Source of the DNA: Glycomyces sp. YM15
GTDB lineage: Bacteria > Actinomycetota > Actinomycetes > Mycobacteriales > Micromonosporaceae
NCBI RefSeq assembly: GCF_016918015.1
Contig: NZ_JAERMK010000003.1
Location: 133,465 to 197,464 of the forward strand
Reading direction: 5' to 3'
Length of the DNA stretch: 64,000 bases
Shown: one piece after another, positions 30,831 to 56,163 of the stretch
Position numbering within the stretch: position 1 is the first letter of the stretch
Layout: every line of letters begins with the position of its first letter
Made by a program: the position numbers and the translations under genes
Notes under the pieces: generated by a model
What the model was told of the DNA's origin: nothing
What the model saw: only the letters and a program-made list of their open reading frames with translations
The model's database searches: none

Positions 30831-30951
30831 AACGGGGTCGGGTCTGGTTCGGTTGGGACGCAACCGATCCGGGCGTGCGTGGGACCTGGAACGTGAATGG
30901 TTTCGCATCGTGTGGGTGATGACAGTCGGGGGCTGTATGGGGGATACTTGA
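30616..30951 (+). pseudogene. Coding remnant interrupted by TAG
   Basis: After TAG 30625-30627 the frame reads ELFEKQREGAWDRSIIESS then ELAAIHWANRRDLDNQHRWP and ITAILHLVQRMIMVFKDRIE. This is a helical, amphipathic sequence that looks like real protein and has no homopolymer bias. The only start just upstream (GTG 30616) gives three codons and then the TAG, so a nonsense mutation has separated the start from the body. A strong GGAAGGAGGG lies at 30581-30590. The right end passes into the repeat described at 30840. I do not recognise the family. Confidence 0.35.
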
Positions 30952-31745
30952 GGTACGTACAGGGACAGGGAATTTGTACAGGTGTCGGGGTAGGTGTAAG
31001 CAGACTACGACAAGCCTCTGGCCGATCCGACAAACCGACTTATTCCGAGGCGACGACCCCGCAAGCCAGGGTGCTCCTCCTTCTTGGAGGCGTCCGATCT
31101 CACCCCCGTGCCATCGCCCGCAGCTGTCCGCGCCCCCGATGGGCCGTGACTGGGTGGACGATTCCCTAGTTGGGATCACCCCAACCAGCAGGCAGTGCCT
31201 TGCAAGGAGGCACTCGCGATTCGAGCACGACCCGCCAGCGTGAGGGGCGAAGCCAGGCCAGGCAACAGAGGACCCGGCCCGGGCAGCACCAGCACGTCCA
31301 TGGCGAGCACCACCCCGTCCCGGCAGCGTCGCGCCCGAAAGCTCCCGCGCGCCTCCAGGACGGACCCGAAGCACAGGAAGCAAGAACCGGGAGGCGAATC
31401 CACCTCCGGCGTTCATTCGGGGAGACCGCCGGGAGGCTGAACCACTCCGGCAGGGACGGCAGGCAACTACATCCGCCCCGGCAGGGACGGCGTGTTCAGG
31501 CGAAAGCCGAAGGGCCAGAACCGGAAGCCCAAGCAAGGTCGACAAGGCCAGCGAGGAAAGCAAGTAGAGCAGCGGGAAGGAGGCGACAGGCACATGAAGA
31601 CCACGAACACGAGCACGAGCACGAGCACGATCATGTCCGGGCCGATCCCGTCGACCGGCGGCTCCCTCGTCGCCGACCACCCAGTCGCTGCGGCATCGGG
31701 CCGGACCCACCCGTCCCGACCGGAAGCGACCACCGGCCCCGCCCC
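30840..31745 (+). repeat. Dispersed ~0.9-kb repeat, copy A (possible structured RNA)
   Basis: This segment recurs at 53560-54485 in the same orientation. The match starts weakly near 30835 and becomes nearly exact from 30916: a 66-base run at 30976-31041 is identical to 53703-53768. It is looser at about 31215-31500, then tight again to about 31740, where similarity ends suddenly. Conserved hairpins include ACAG/CTGT around the GGGGG loop, CCTCC/GGAGG (31076-31090, loop TTCTT here and ACT in copy B), GTTGGG/CCCAAC (31169-31185) and AGTGCCT/AGGCACT (31194-31214). The last is kept as a helix in copy B by paired changes. No long frame is shared across the first 650 bases. The 3' part carries a Shine-Dalgarno and a small ORF. 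Confidence 0.75.
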
Positions 31746-32019
31746 GGCGGCCCACCCCCAGGCCACCGCAACAGCACCGACAACGACAACGACAACGGCT
31801 CGAGTCCGGCCGGAATCCCAGGTGCGGCCGGGTCCCCAAGAACTCCAAGTCCGTCGGGGTCCCACACGCCGCCAGCGCTCCAACTCCAGCTGGGATCCCG
31901 AGTCCCCCCAACGACGGCAACACACCCGAATCCCGCCACCCCACCGCCCTGACCGCAACCAGCCCTCACGACAGCACCACACCCCCGGACCCGACCCACA
32001 CCGCTCTGTCGCTGCCTGA
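31594..32019 (+). CDS. Small ORF with (Thr-Ser)n start at the end of repeat copy A
   Basis: ATG 31594 follows AAGGAGG (31577-31583), conserved in both copies. The protein is 141 residues: a short TS repeat from an ACGAGC hexanucleotide (three units here), then STIMSGPIPSTGGSLVADHP and AASGRTHPSRPEATTGP, shared with copy B. After that point the two proteins share nothing; here the tail is rich in Thr, Arg, Pro and Gln and low in complexity. It could be a real small protein with a variable end, or a chance frame in a conserved RNA. The near-identity of the DNA means synonymous-change tests cannot decide from two copies. Confidence 0.35.
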   Translation: MKTTNTSTSTSTIMSGPIPSTGGSLVADHPVAAASGRTHPSRPEATTGPAPAAHPQATATAPTTTTTTARVRPESQVRPGPQELQVRRGPTRRQRSNSSWDPESPQRRQHTRIPPPHRPDRNQPSRQHHTPGPDPHRSVAA

Positions 32020-32873: not shown

Positions 32874-32974
32874 GGGCCCCGAGCCTACCCATGCCACCGG
32901 AGATCCGCGACGCTCTCGTCCCACTCTGCGGCCTCGTCAGGGGCTCAGGCCGGTGCGCGGCCGTACCATCGGTT

Positions 32975-33160
32975 CCGACGCTGGTTCCGAGGCGGTGCAC
33001 ACCGCTTCGGCTAAGAGGGAATCTGGTGTGAATCCAGGACTGCCCCGCAGCGGTGAGAGGGAACGAAACCCGCCATGAGCACTGGGCCCGGAACCTGGGA
33101 AGCGGTGGGGATTAGGTGCCGGAGACGGCGCGCCCTCGAGTCCGAATACCTGCCCGCGTA
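32975..33160 (+). promoter_or_regulatory. Cobalamin (B12) riboswitch
   Basis: The leader of metE carries the conserved parts of an adenosylcobalamin riboswitch: AAGAGGGAA, then GTGAATCCAGGACTGCC and CCGCAGCGGTGAGAGG, a GCCATGAGCACTGG block, GGTGGGGATTAGG and the B12 box AGTCCGAATACCTGCC at 33139-33154. Cobalamin binding should shut off the B12-independent methionine synthase, which implies that the genome also has a B12-dependent metH. Confidence 0.92.
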
Positions 33161-33212
33161 CCGCGCGCGACCGCGCGCGGTCCCGTTGTCGCACGTTCGA
33201 GGGAACTGACAC

Positions 33213-35468
33213 ATGAACACGACTACCAGCGTGCCCGCGAAACGACCGCAGGCCACCGCACTCGGCTATCCGCGCATCGGACCGAACCGCGAGCTCAAGC
33301 GAGCACTCGAGTCCCACTGGTCCGGTCGGCTCGACGCCGCCGGGCTGGAAGCGGCCGCCGCCGCCGTCCGCTCCGGGATGCTCGACGACCTCTCGGTGCT
33401 CGACACGGTCCCGACCGGCACCTTCTCCTACTACGACCACGTGCTCGACACGATCTGCGCCGTTGACGCGCTGGCTCCGCGCCACCGGCGGGAGACCGAG
33501 CTCGCCTCCTACTTCGCCGCCGCCCGCGGCGACGAGGCGGCCGTGCCGCTCGAGATGACCAAGTGGTTCGACACCAACTACCACTACCTCGTTCCGGAGA
33601 TCGGACCCGAGACCGCGTTCGCGGCCAAGCCCGCGAAGGCGATCGCCGAGTTCCTGGAGGCGAAGGAGCGCGGACTCGACGCCCGACCGGTGCTGCTCGG
33701 CCCGGTCTCGTTCCTCCTGCTCGCCAAGCCGAGCGAGGACGCGCCCGCCGATTTCATCCCGCTCGACCGGCTCGACGACCTCGTCGAGGTCTACGTCGAA
33801 CTCCTTGCCGCCCTCGCGGAGGCCGGGGCGGGCCTGATCCAGCTCGACGAGCCCGCGCTGTGCGCCGACCGCACCGAAGTCGAGCTCGCGGCGACCGCCG
33901 CGGCCTATCGGCGGCTGGTCGCGGGCGCGGAGATCCTCATCGCGGGCGGTTACGGGCCGTTCGGCGAATCGCTGCCGGTGCTGCTCGAAGCCGGCGTGGA
34001 GGGCGTGGCCCTGGACCTCGTGCGTGGCCGCAGTGACCTGGAAACACTTGAGGCACTGAATGTTTCACGTGAAACATTCTTGCTGGCCGGGGCGGTTGAC
34101 GGCCGCAACATCTGGCGCGCCGACCTCGCCAAGGGCGCGGCCGACCTCGCACGGCTGCAGGGCATCAGCGACCGCGTCGGGGTCTCCTCCTCGTCCTCGC
34201 TGCTGCACGTCCCGGTCGACCTCGACGCCGAGCAGGACCTGCCTGAGGCGCTGTTCGAGCGCCTCTCGTTCGCGCGACAGAAACTCCTCGAGATCAAGGC
34301 GATCGCCGACCCCGAGGGTTCCCGCGAGGCCCGGCCGCAGACGCCGGCGGACTGGCGCGACGATTCGGTGCGCGAGCGGCTCGCCGCCCTCGGCGCGGAC
34401 GCCGACCGGCGGCTGCCGTACAGCGAACGCCAAGCGGCCCAGGCCGAGCGCGTCCCGCTCCCGCCGCTGCCGACGACCACCATCGGCTCGTTCCCGCAGA
34501 CCGCCGAGCTGCGCAACGCCCGCGCCGCGCACCGCCGCGGCCTGATGATCGACGCCGACTACAAGGCCCGCATGAAGGCCGAGGTCGCCGCCGTCATCGC
34601 CGAGCAGGAGAAGCTCGGCCTCGACGTGCTCGTCCACGGCGAGCCCGAGCGCAACGACATGGTGCAGTACTTCGCCGAACAGCTCACCGGGTTCGCGACC
34701 ACCGCCGCCGGCTGGGTGCAGTCCTACGGTTCGCGCTGTGTGCGCCCGCCGATCCTGTTCGCCGACGTCGCGCGGCAGGCGCCGATGACCGTGGAGTGGA
34801 CCTCGTACGCGCAGTCGCTCACCGAGAAGCCCGTCAAGGGCATGCTGACCGGGCCCGTCACGATCCTGGCCTGGTCGTTCGTGCGCGACGACCAGCCGCT
34901 CGCCGACACCGCCGACCAGGTGGCGCTCGCGCTGCGCGACGAGGTCGCCGACCTCGAAGCGGCCGGGACCGCGATCATCCAGGTCGACGAGCCCGCGCTC
35001 CGCGAGCTCCTGCCGGTGCGCGCGGCTTCCCGTGCGGCGTACCGGGACTGGGCGACGCGCTCGTTCCGTCTCGCCACGGCGGGCGTGCGTCCGGAGACCT
35101 CGATCCACACGCACCTGTGCTACTCGGAGTTCGGCGAGGTCATCGACGCGATCGCGGCCCTGGACGCCGACGTCACCTCGATCGAGGCGTCGCGTTCGAA
35201 GATGGAGGTCCTCGCCGACCTCGACCGCGCGAACTACCGCAGCGCGGTCGGCCCCGGCGTGTGGGACATCCACTCGCCGCGCGTCCCCGCGGCCGACGAC
35301 ATGGCCGAGGCCCTGCGCCTCGCGGTGGCCGCGCTCGGCCCCGAGCGGGTCTGGGCGAACCCGGACTGCGGTCTGAAGACCCGCCGTTACGAGGAGGTCC
35401 GCCCGTCCCTCGAAGGACTCGTGGCCGCCGCCCGCGCCGTGCGCGAGCAGCTCGCACAGTCCGCGTAG
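33213..35468 (+). CDS. metE: Cobalamin-independent methionine synthase
   Basis: A 751-residue 5-methyltetrahydropteroyltriglutamate-homocysteine methyltransferase that makes methionine without B12. The N-terminal barrel starts ATALGYPRIGPNRELKRALESHWSG. The catalytic C-terminal barrel has LPTTTIGSFPQTAELR, the zinc ligands in IHTHLCYSEF (His, Cys), the distal Cys in WANPDCGLKTR and Glu in EASRSKMEVL. Length is normal. The gene is under a cobalamin riboswitch 50 bases upstream. A perfect parS site lies inside the coding sequence at 34061, where it encodes NVSRETF. Confidence 0.95.
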   Translation: MNTTTSVPAKRPQATALGYPRIGPNRELKRALESHWSGRLDAAGLEAAAAAVRSGMLDDLSVLDTVPTGTFSYYDHVLDTICAVDALAPRHRRETELASYFAAARGDEAAVPLEMTKWFDTNYHYLVPEIGPETAFAAKPAKAIAEFLEAKERGLDARPVLLGPVSFLLLAKPSEDAPADFIPLDRLDDLVEVYVELLAALAEAGAGLIQLDEPALCADRTEVELAATAAAYRRLVAGAEILIAGGYGPFGESLPVLLEAGVEGVALDLVRGRSDLETLEALNVSRETFLLAGAVDGRNIWRADLAKGAADLARLQGISDRVGVSSSSSLLHVPVDLDAEQDLPEALFERLSFARQKLLEIKAIADPEGSREARPQTPADWRDDSVRERLAALGADADRRLPYSERQAAQAERVPLPPLPTTTIGSFPQTAELRNARAAHRRGLMIDADYKARMKAEVAAVIAEQEKLGLDVLVHGEPERNDMVQYFAEQLTGFATTAAGWVQSYGSRCVRPPILFADVARQAPMTVEWTSYAQSLTEKPVKGMLTGPVTILAWSFVRDDQPLADTADQVALALRDEVADLEAAGTAIIQVDEPALRELLPVRAASRAAYRDWATRSFRLATAGVRPETSIHTHLCYSEFGEVIDAIAALDADVTSIEASRSKMEVLADLDRANYRSAVGPGVWDIHSPRVPAADDMAEALRLAVAALGPERVWANPDCGLKTRRYEEVRPSLEGLVAAARAVREQLAQSA
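34061..34076. other. parS: Perfect parS chromosome-segregation site
   Basis: TGTTTCACGTGAAACA is a 16-bp perfect palindrome identical to the bacterial parS consensus bound by ParB. It is embedded in metE in frame. In Streptomyces and most Bacteria such sites cluster near oriC, so this window is probably in the origin-proximal part of the chromosome. Confidence 0.9.
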
Positions 35469-53252: not shown

Positions 53253-53559
53253 ATCTCCACCGCAGGGTGCGCTCGAGGACTTCCCTGCTATCGGCGAACC
53301 TCAACTGCTCGACGGCCCGCAGGGGAGACGTGACAAGTCGACGCCGCGGTGCTGAAGCCGGCGAGCTTCGCTGTGGAGGTCCGATGGCGGGCTTCGACCC
53401 TCGACAGGGTTCCTGACACCGATCTGGTTCGGATCGCCCGCCCACTGCATTCCAGGGGTGGGCGCCGGTTTGCCGCCGTGTCCCCCGCGGGGTCGGTTCT
53501 TGGTCAGGGTTCGAGCAGTCAGCGACGGAGGGGTGGGTGGCGGGGTCGGCGGGGTGGCG
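53253..53559. other. 300-bp gap before repeat copy B
   Basis: There is no gene signal. The left part has an ordinary base composition; the right part becomes rich in GGGTGG-type G tracts on the + strand. The first weak similarity to the region upstream of copy A begins near the right end. Confidence 0.4.
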
Positions 53560-54583
<1,024 letters not shown>

Positions 54584-54830
54584 GTGCTACCTCGCGTTTC
54601 CGTCGCTGCCAGTTCGAACCGGGGTTGAATCGCCGCCCGGCCCCGGAGACGGAGCTTTAGGGGTTACCCCGCGTTTCCGTCGCTGCCCGGTTGAACCCGG
54701 GTCGAATCACCGCCCGACCCGGACACGGACCCGCATTTTCTTCTCGCTGCATCCGTCGTTGCCGGATTGAAGCTCGCCCCAGACGTCGGCCGATCTCGGT
54801 CACGCGCCTCGAGGCGAACTTCATCGTTCC

Positions 54831-55065
54831 CTAGTAGACACTCGCCACGTCGGGCAGATCAATGCCGATGCGGGGCAGTGCACTCAAGTCAAGGGTCATC
54901 AGGTAGTCCTTCGGGATCCCGCAGCCGTCGCGAGCCCACGCGACCTCCTCCGGCGGCAGCGCGGCCCGCGACCGAGGCGACGACCGGTGACGGCCCGTCG
55001 GCCCGGCGAAGCCCGATCGAGTCCCGCCAGAGCGCGCGCCACTCTGCGAGTTTGTCCGGTTCCAT
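54831..55065 (-). pseudogene. Frameshifted small hypothetical gene
   Basis: ATG 55065 starts MEPDKLAEWRALWRDSIGLRRADGP, a believable helix, but the frame then loses pattern and stops early. The neighbouring frame continues with ALPPEEVAWARDGCGIPKDYLM then TLDLSALPRIGIDLPDVASVY to 54831. Joining the two by one frameshift near 54990 gives a protein of about 75 residues. The family is not recognised. Confidence 0.4.
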
Positions 55066-55131
55066 TGCTGCTCCAACAAGAACGGGGATTCGCGGTCAGG
55101 GTATGGCACGGCCGCAGTAGGCTCCCGGCGC

Positions 55132-56163
55132 ATGAGCGATGCCACCGTGATGCTGAAGACCGTCGATCGTGAGGGCGGCTCCTCGAAGCGGCGGCCCTGG
55201 TACCGGTGGCGGTGGCTTCGGGTCCTGTCGTGGCTCGGGACGGCCGGGGCGCTCGCCTACGGGGCGGTCCGGATCTTCGGATTGGAGAGCGGGTTCCTCC
55301 TGGTCACGACCGTGGCGTTCGTTCCCTATTTCGTGGTCGCCGCGCTCGTCGGGGCGGGGTTGCAGGCGGCCATCCGGCACTGGCTCGCCGCGGGCGTCAC
55401 CGCGGCCGTGGCGGTCGGGCTGGCGATCGTGCTCGTGCCTCGCGTCGTCGCCGACGACCAGCCCGCGGCGGGCGGGGCGGAGCTGACGGTCATGTCCGTC
55501 AATCTCTATGTGGGCAACGCGAACTTCGACTACATCATGGAACTGGTCGAGGAGCACCGGCCCGACCTGCTCAGCGTCCAGGAGTTGACGCCCGGTTCCC
55601 CCGACGCGTTCACCGAGCGGGGCCTCGACGAGCTCATGCCGTACTCGATCCTGGAACCGTACGACCTCGCGATCGGGACCGGCCTGTACTCGCGGTACCC
55701 CCTCGAGCGCATCGAGACCGTCGGGCGCGACGCGATCTTCTACCAGATCGCCGCCGAAGTCGACATGCCCGAAGGGACCGACGTCCGCTTCATGGCGGCC
55801 CACCCGGCCGCGCCCGCATCGGCCGAGCGGATCCCCTTGTGGGAAGAGGATTTCGAGCAGCTCCCGCGCCCCGACGACGGGCTGCCGTGGGTGCTCGCCG
55901 GGGACTTCAACGCCACCCTCGACCACGAGAACATGCGCGAGCTGCTCGACTCCGGGTACACGGACGCCGCCGAAGCCACCGGTGACGGACTCGACGCCAC
56001 CTGGCAGCCGACCGTCGGCTACCTGAACGGCCTCGTCACGATCCCCGCCGTCACCCTCGACCACGTCATCGCCCAGGACGGCATCGAAGTGCTCGACTGG
56101 GAGGTCCTCGACAAGGACGGCAGCGACCACGCCCCGGTGGTGGCCCGCCTGCGGCTTCCCTGA
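55132..56163 (+). CDS. Membrane-anchored endonuclease/exonuclease/phosphatase-family protein
   Basis: A 343-residue protein with three membrane helices in the first 110 residues (VLSWLGTAGALAYGAVRIFG, LLVTTVAFVPYFVVAALVGAG, GVTAAVAVGLAIVLVP), then an EEP domain outside the membrane. Catalytic landmarks are VMSVNLYVGN (Asn), LLSVQEL (Glu), VLAGDFNATL (Asp-Asn) and GSDHAPVVARL (Asp-His). Substrates of such anchored EEP proteins may be DNA, phosphodiesters or phospholipids; none is shown. Confidence 0.9.
   Translation: MSDATVMLKTVDREGGSSKRRPWYRWRWLRVLSWLGTAGALAYGAVRIFGLESGFLLVTTVAFVPYFVVAALVGAGLQAAIRHWLAAGVTAAVAVGLAIVLVPRVVADDQPAAGGAELTVMSVNLYVGNANFDYIMELVEEHRPDLLSVQELTPGSPDAFTERGLDELMPYSILEPYDLAIGTGLYSRYPLERIETVGRDAIFYQIAAEVDMPEGTDVRFMAAHPAAPASAERIPLWEEDFEQLPRPDDGLPWVLAGDFNATLDHENMRELLDSGYTDAAEATGDGLDATWQPTVGYLNGLVTIPAVTLDHVIAQDGIEVLDWEVLDKDGSDHAPVVARLRLP

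Follow-up and report, generated by a model that had tools for sequence, protein, structure and literature searches.

What kind of element is the ~0.9-kb sequence that lies twice, at 30840-31745 and 53560-54485, in a 64,000-nucleotide stretch of DNA from the soil bacterium Glycomyces sp. YM15 (the whole stretch analysed, hereafter the window), and what does it make? A reading of the sequence alone had described the pair as a ~0.9-kb dispersed element with signs of conserved RNA structure. The two copies aligned over their whole length, as claimed, and an exact 66-base run common to both was counted in their alignment. The outline of the element was redrawn. The conserved RNA core is shorter than 0.9 kb (~30948-31213 in copy 1, ~53675-53935 in copy 2); at the three sites compared, relatives lack a block of greater length (~1.3-1.7 kb); and the signal is that of a family with many members rather than of a pair. 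The reading that we prefer, and to which we give about an even chance, is that of a mobile element found in the genus Glycomyces, one that encodes no protein, is bounded by inverted repeats and would have a structured RNA acting in trans as its sole product. Features of the promoter region, core and 3' part were assigned as follows.

Copy 1, 30890..30896 (+): motif AACGTGA, 22 nt upstream of the -35-like hexamer.
Copy 1, 30919..30924 (+): -35-like hexamer ATGACA (loose-pattern match).
Copy 1, 30943..30948 (+): -10-like hexamer GATACT, after an 18-nt spacer.
Copy 1, 30948..31116 (+): RNA domain 1 (fold alignment, model R1).
Copy 1, 30957-30960/31108-31111 and 30962-30964/31104-31106 (+): P1.
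Copy 1, 30969-30973/31042-31046 (+): P2.
Copy 1, closing pairs 31047-31049/31099-31101 (+): P3, a hairpin of variable length.
Copy 1, 31169..31185 (+): D3 hairpin, with GGGATCACC at 31172-31180.
Copy 1, 31195..31213 (+): D4 hairpin, the one singled out by the sequence-only reading.
Copy 1, 31214..31760 (+): faster-evolving 3' part, common to the long type of this genome.
Copy 1, 31602-31630 (+): hexamer array inside the faster-evolving 3' part.
Copy 1, 30887..31742 (+): own-genome profile match, with no significant inverted-repeat arms.
Copy 2, 53617..53623 (+): motif AACATGA.
Copy 2, 53646..53651 (+): -35-like hexamer ATGACA.
Copy 2, 53670..53675 (+): -10-like hexamer GACAAT, after an 18-nt spacer.
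Copy 2, 53675..53841 (+): RNA domain 1.
Copy 2, 53892..53908 (+): D3 hairpin.
Copy 2, 53918..53935 (+): D4 hairpin.
Copy 2, 53611..54486 (+): own-genome profile match.

The two copies had been said to share no reading frame, and this held: no clear 3-base period was found in any window of 90 nt, and indels of 1-2 nt were present. Codon-level selection was sought by diversity periodicity and by codon differences and was found in no frame. A candidate small ORF, with an SD-like AAGGAGG and an ATG at 54320, was located in copy 2. The SD string was present in 25/30 copies fetched from the own genome, always with an ATG after it, and length changes past the ATG were mostly multiples of 6, as might be expected if the element were a degenerate protein-coding gene or held a small ORF. 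However, 3210/4407 single-base codon differences in pairwise comparisons of this ORF were nonsynonymous, the differences fell on the three codon positions as 1340/1736/1331 with no 3-base period, and the copies differ in where the frame ends; we find a protein-coding origin scarcely credible.

Upstream of the core, -35-like and -10-like hexamers stood 17 nt (32 sequences) or 18 nt (25 sequences) apart in 57/65 sequences searched with loose patterns. Mean column identity over 63 sequences was 0.84 for the -10, 0.79 for the -35 and 0.59 for the spacer. From these hexamers, family members are predicted to carry a sigma70-like promoter, and the start of RNA domain 1 coincides with the transcription start expected from it. 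AAYRTGA, found upstream of the -35-like hexamer in 55/63 sequences, is perhaps a regulator site.

The RNA core of ~270 nt consists of domain 1, domain 2 and then hairpins D3 and D4. P1, the long-range helix that closes domain 1, brings GCAC and GGG together with their partners GUGC and CCC, which lie >100 nt downstream; P2 joins GGAAU with AUUCC, and P3, variable in length, is closed by GAG/CUC. D3 carries GGGATCACC in 46/47 rows of alignment A3, from which three diverged rows, all without the D3 motif, were left out. We take this near-invariant sequence (31172-31180) to resemble the 3' end of 16S rRNA (GGATCACCTCC), maybe by chance; a 16S model search of the own assembly gave no match. At D4 (31195-31213 against 53918-53935), the reported changes from G-C to A-T and from T-A to G-C with pairing intact were recovered, and the exchanged columns show several standard pair types across 19 own-genome copies.

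Structures of domain 1 and D3/D4 were partly derived from the sequences on which they were tested, which biases the following values in their favour. For domain 1 (43 sequences, 21 pairs), 96.7% of cells were paired, against 29-52% in slid controls, double-sided changes occurred in 8 pairs (30 cells), and the covariation score was equalled by 0/500 shuffles. For D3 and D4 (47 sequences, 12 pairs), 95.2% of cells were paired and double-sided changes occurred in 5 pairs (15 cells); shuffles came as high in 0/500 cases for the covariation score and in 4/500 for the number of pairs. Placed on trees, one-step double-sided events numbered 14 in domain 1 and 5 in D3/D4, with 4 at pair 15-186. By a per-pair G-test that keeps the tree (a home-made null, applied to an earlier MAFFT alignment), no pair was individually significant. 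The sequence-only reading had placed selection on RNA or single-stranded DNA structure and had proposed covariation as the check. Selection on structure is supported by covariation with controls, and the check came out in part, the shuffle tests on domain 1 and D3/D4 being positive and the stricter tree-keeping null negative. On the promoter's strand, G.U was found in 188 cells, 43 of them from one invariant pair, and A.C in 14. Because of this excess, and because the promoter-like hexamers lie on the same strand, RNA appears favoured over single-stranded DNA as the selected molecule.

A second pairing was noted for GUGCUAUCG (31108-31116): besides its place in P1, it could instead bind CGAGGCAC near D4 (3' strand). 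The alternative was 98.1% paired in 47 sequences, and 49-50/500 shuffles reached its covariation measures. The two pairings may form a switch; the alternative is compatible with the sequences and hardly covaries.

The family was sized by BLAST and by models of the fold, and the likeness among its copies goes far past what chance would give. BLAST against the own genome returned 50 matching stretches, several of which stop at contig ends, so that some copies were possibly missed; 23/30 fetched own-genome copies were near full length. Model R1 gave at least 35 members in the own genome and 155 matches in 15/22 Glycomyces genomes, with 35 in the own genome, 20 in G006 (G. lechevalierae), 17 in G014 (G. 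luteolus), 15 in G008 (G. amatae) and 2 to 11 in the remaining positive genomes. Seven of the 22 gave no R1 match; one of these, G017, had partial BLAST matches at contig ends. Model R2, built on the domain adjoining that of R1, matched 14/40 relatives, every one of them in the genus.

Under stricter filters, R1 matched 4 of 298 genomes of the order, none outside the genus; in the phylum (396 genomes), it matched the own genome alone. The order-level BLAST matches at query positions 342-426 were short and weak. A motif scan of genome contigs returned at least 95 stretches, and among the matches listed 89 were from Glycomyces and 6 were not. Three of these six had short weak R1 matches at the motif, the best with E 0.0086; of the other three, one had a weak match off the motif, and the fifth stretch and L286 had none. 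The six were taken as chance matches. Origin from a phage or plasmid was rejected, with no match among 50,697 phage and 72,556 plasmid records, and the sole motif match on a viral contig was not recovered by R1 even at a cut-off of E 1.

Orthologous sites were compared between the own genome and its relatives. At site L103, flank matches lie ~20 nt (G014) and ~10 nt (G016, G. algeriensis) apart, against ~1.67 kb here; at L106, the interval is ~105-115 nt in relatives and ~1.3-1.4 kb here, and the block stands where the relatives show an apparent terminator hairpin. The block at copy 2 was missing in four relatives. The right end of this block falls within the reverse-strand frame 54831-55145 (-), which has lost its C-terminal part relative to G014, whose counterpart continues for ~180 codons, so this frame was apparently shortened by the insertion. 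An empty site in relatives, a mark of MITEs and non-autonomous transposons, was found at L103, L106 and copy 2. No target-site duplication was seen by eye at the junctions of these three sites. At copy 1, no element was present in relatives' loci reaching 1.5 kb beyond the neighbouring gene (a comparison at the level of the locus), and a search at L118 gave no clear junction.

A repeat search of the three insertion blocks returned inverted arms of 22 nt (86%) at copy 2, 57 nt (74%) at L103 and 57 nt (77%) at L106. At L103, both arms lie ~20 nt or less from the ends of the 1.67-kb block absent in G014 and G016, and this was the only one of the three blocks with arms at its very ends. The outer features of copy 2 are listed here.

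53254..54848 (+): block missing at this site in four relatives.
53508..53529 (+): 5' inverted-repeat arm; complementarity of 86% to the 3' arm at 54599-54620.
~53476-53561 with ~54491-54576: wider arm, with 0/100 shuffles as high.
54599..54620 (-): 3' inverted-repeat arm, matched again within the following tandem repeat (54676-54698).
54563..54729 (+): 77-nt tandem repeats of the 3' arm.

Arms were then scored throughout the family: the sequence upstream of the promoter was aligned to the reverse-complemented sequence downstream of the core, with dinucleotide shuffles as controls for own copies. Own copies scored above all 100 shuffles in 9/23 cases and were exceeded by at most 5/100 in 14/23; the remaining 9/23 had no arm signal at 5%, copy 1 being beaten by 63/100 shuffles. 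In other species, 29/71 loci scored above all 60 shuffles and 36/71 were beaten by at most 3, leaving 35/71 that fail the 3/60 cut-off; in the direct-orientation control for the same species, 6/71 loci scored above all 60 shuffles. Arms reached up to ~200 nt in other species' loci, where the significant ones lie at ~-320 to -30 and ~+720 to +1480 from the profile start. Since the 5' arm is upstream of the promoter, the arms belong to the DNA unit rather than to the RNA. Repeats of 77-140 nt were present in the 3' arm of four other own copies. Terminal inverted repeats, likewise a mark of MITEs and non-autonomous transposons, were found in part of the copies. As a separate observation, the left end of the L103 block (L103:3456-3560) bears a strong hairpin, CGAGCGAG...CTCGCTCG, directly past the stop of the upstream gene; it looks like a terminator and forms part of the outer inverted repeat.

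Genes around the element were examined at 93 placed loci, of which 45 lie in convergent, 39 in tandem and 9 in divergent gaps. Element-free gaps at the same loci numbered 129 convergent, 406 tandem and 158 divergent, so that the element shows a preference for convergent gaps (Fisher p ~2e-9, the loci being partly dependent). Tandem-gap loci were divided 15 and 24 by orientation (p=0.20). Judged by eye, the largest neighbour clusters look like ABC ATPases, at 11 loci, and response regulators, at 7; each is a common family, and several smaller clusters were explained by orthologous loci. No TnpB, IscB or Y1 protein was seen by eye in the 25 largest neighbour clusters within 4 kb of the 93 loci, and of the 79 Pfam families among the 59 nearest proteins, the 25 commonest include no transposase. 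The varied neighbours and the lack of a recurrent transposase argue against a leader and, for the loci examined, also against a linked transposase, while a single autonomous copy may lie elsewhere.

A cis-regulatory leader or riboswitch for downstream genes would suit a fold as complex as that of a riboswitch and a GUGCUAUCG that can pair in two ways. The next gene, however, is on the opposite strand in 69/93 loci and co-directional in 24/93, with a median gap of 823 nt past the profile match, and the neighbouring genes are of varied function with none in common. We regard this identity as highly improbable and reject it on genomic context.

The preference for convergent gaps could also be that of a single-stranded DNA structure or of a terminator or insulator repeat (REP- or BOX-like) at the 3' ends of genes; in keeping with this, L106 replaces an apparent terminator hairpin and the L103 block starts with a strong one. 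But the G.U excess on one strand, the promoter-like elements, the long core and the near-invariant loops do not fit such a repeat, which we consider very unlikely.

The main alternative, and a strong rival to the mobile-element reading, is a family of host genes for structured RNAs, each standing alone, acting in trans and serving the cell, for example as a protein- or ribosome-bound scaffold; such genes would be copied by occasional ordinary recombination or with ends acquired from a mobile element. We hold it to be a real possibility, short of an even chance. The history of individual loci bears on it directly. Two own copies were 89% (L126) and 88% (L129) identical overall to G014 copies judged orthologous by their flanks. 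Against its probable G014 orthologue, L129 was 94 and 94% identical in the core, 75 and 79% upstream and 87 and 56% in the tail; L126 was 97 and 89% identical in the core, 89% near upstream, 53% far upstream, 94% over the next 170 nt downstream of the core and 65% at the tail end. At L123, the far flank and a far downstream stretch were kept about as well as the core. Some loci are old. That the core is kept in old copies suggests that the RNA serves some purpose, be it for the host or for the element itself; and since L129 and L126 have stayed at orthologous sites with a constrained core, unlike a dead mobile copy, they favour the host genes. The side-by-side presence of subtypes 54-69% identical to each other is a further point for the host family. 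Also counted against the mobile-element reading were the copies with no arm signal, the missing target-site duplication, the lack of a recurrent transposase and the negative tree-keeping null, and two further observations: the D4 loop is altered in the long type of the own genome, though kept elsewhere, and G008 has 15 R1 matches and 1 R2 match.

On the other side, a family of host genes does not readily explain 7/22 genomes of the genus without an R1 match, a copy number of 2 to 35 where the family is present, or the inverted arms and the empty sites in relatives. The long type has, to judge from the three compared insertion sites that are empty in relatives, spread recently. It is also homogenised within the species: with four other own copies, the own copy at L102 shares 88-95% identity, and with the G014 and G016 copies at the same site 73 and 71%, where the flanks are 83-90% identical to those in the relatives. 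Because arms were found in many copies, by the repeat search and against shuffles, the mobile-element reading is ranked above the host RNA gene.

In the mobile-element reading, the unit would be ordered as 5' inverted-repeat arm, promoter, ~270-nt core, fast-evolving tail and 3' inverted-repeat arm, an arrangement for which the promoter-like hexamers, the RNA fold and the arms of many copies argue. Sigma70-type transcription would begin ~7 nt past the -10 element, and the folded RNA would work in trans, most likely in an RNA-protein complex with a presumed partner. An enzyme encoded elsewhere would copy the DNA unit, by way of arms that serve as its ends, into intergenic gaps; damage to promoters would select for convergent gaps, and recombination would homogenise young copies within a species. 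The gene-free context, empty sites and within-species homogeneity seen in the genomes compared are consistent with these steps. A bolder version, which we think unlikely, is that the RNA itself helps to copy its arm-bounded DNA into convergent gaps, with the hypervariable P3 and the tail as carriers of copy-specific information.

If true, a single genome with 35 or more copies of a large structured RNA gene not recorded before would hold an unusually expanded family. Structural studies could draw on ~155 natural variants, and concerted evolution could be followed in RNA genes that are dispersed. The family would also serve to test whether RNA can be the sole product of an element that spreads.

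Known RNA families were searched with Rfam 15, which gave one match in the whole window, a cobalamin riboswitch outside the element. This riboswitch (32965-33171 (+), 99.3 bits) is ordinary and lies upstream of a large ORF (33213-35468), a putative gene for methionine synthase. When the search of the element and four relatives' loci was relaxed to E 5, it gave only weak matches far below threshold. Literature searches returned no description of this Glycomyces RNA family. The earlier remark that no described actinobacterial RNA of this shape was known agrees with the lack of an Rfam match and of a published description, and the element is outside the named RNA families tested.

By its product, the element is most like OLE, GOLLD and ROOL, each a long non-coding bacterial RNA with an elaborate conserved fold; to our knowledge, none of the three occurs as dozens of dispersed, homogenised copies, and their models gave no match in the window, the element or the four relatives' loci. 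OLE, GOLLD and ROOL are reported to form homo-oligomers (PMC12286853). With HEARO/omega RNA, the Glycomyces element shares a structured RNA within a dispersed element; it differs in having no Rfam match, in its long inverted arms and in the absence of a recurrent transposase or nuclease gene beside the examined copies. HEARO/omega RNA belongs to IS605-like transposons, a dispersed element some copies of which are without a protein gene.

By its manner of spread, the element is closest to MITEs, which are likewise dispersed and protein-less, with inverted arms (here in many copies) and empty sites in relatives. MITEs as a rule have no conserved gene, whereas the promoter and RNA core of the Glycomyces element are mostly better kept than its outer parts. 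REP/BIME, BOX, Correia and RIME sequences also occur in many intergenic copies with hairpins, but the Glycomyces unit is far longer and keeps its promoter and core across species. rRNA operons are multicopy RNA genes under concerted evolution and, like the long type, are homogenised within species; the Glycomyces copies, in contrast, are scattered over the genome, and some of them are short-lived where they stand. On the sequences compared, the Glycomyces element seems to resemble the orphan large structured RNAs by its product and the MITEs by its spread.
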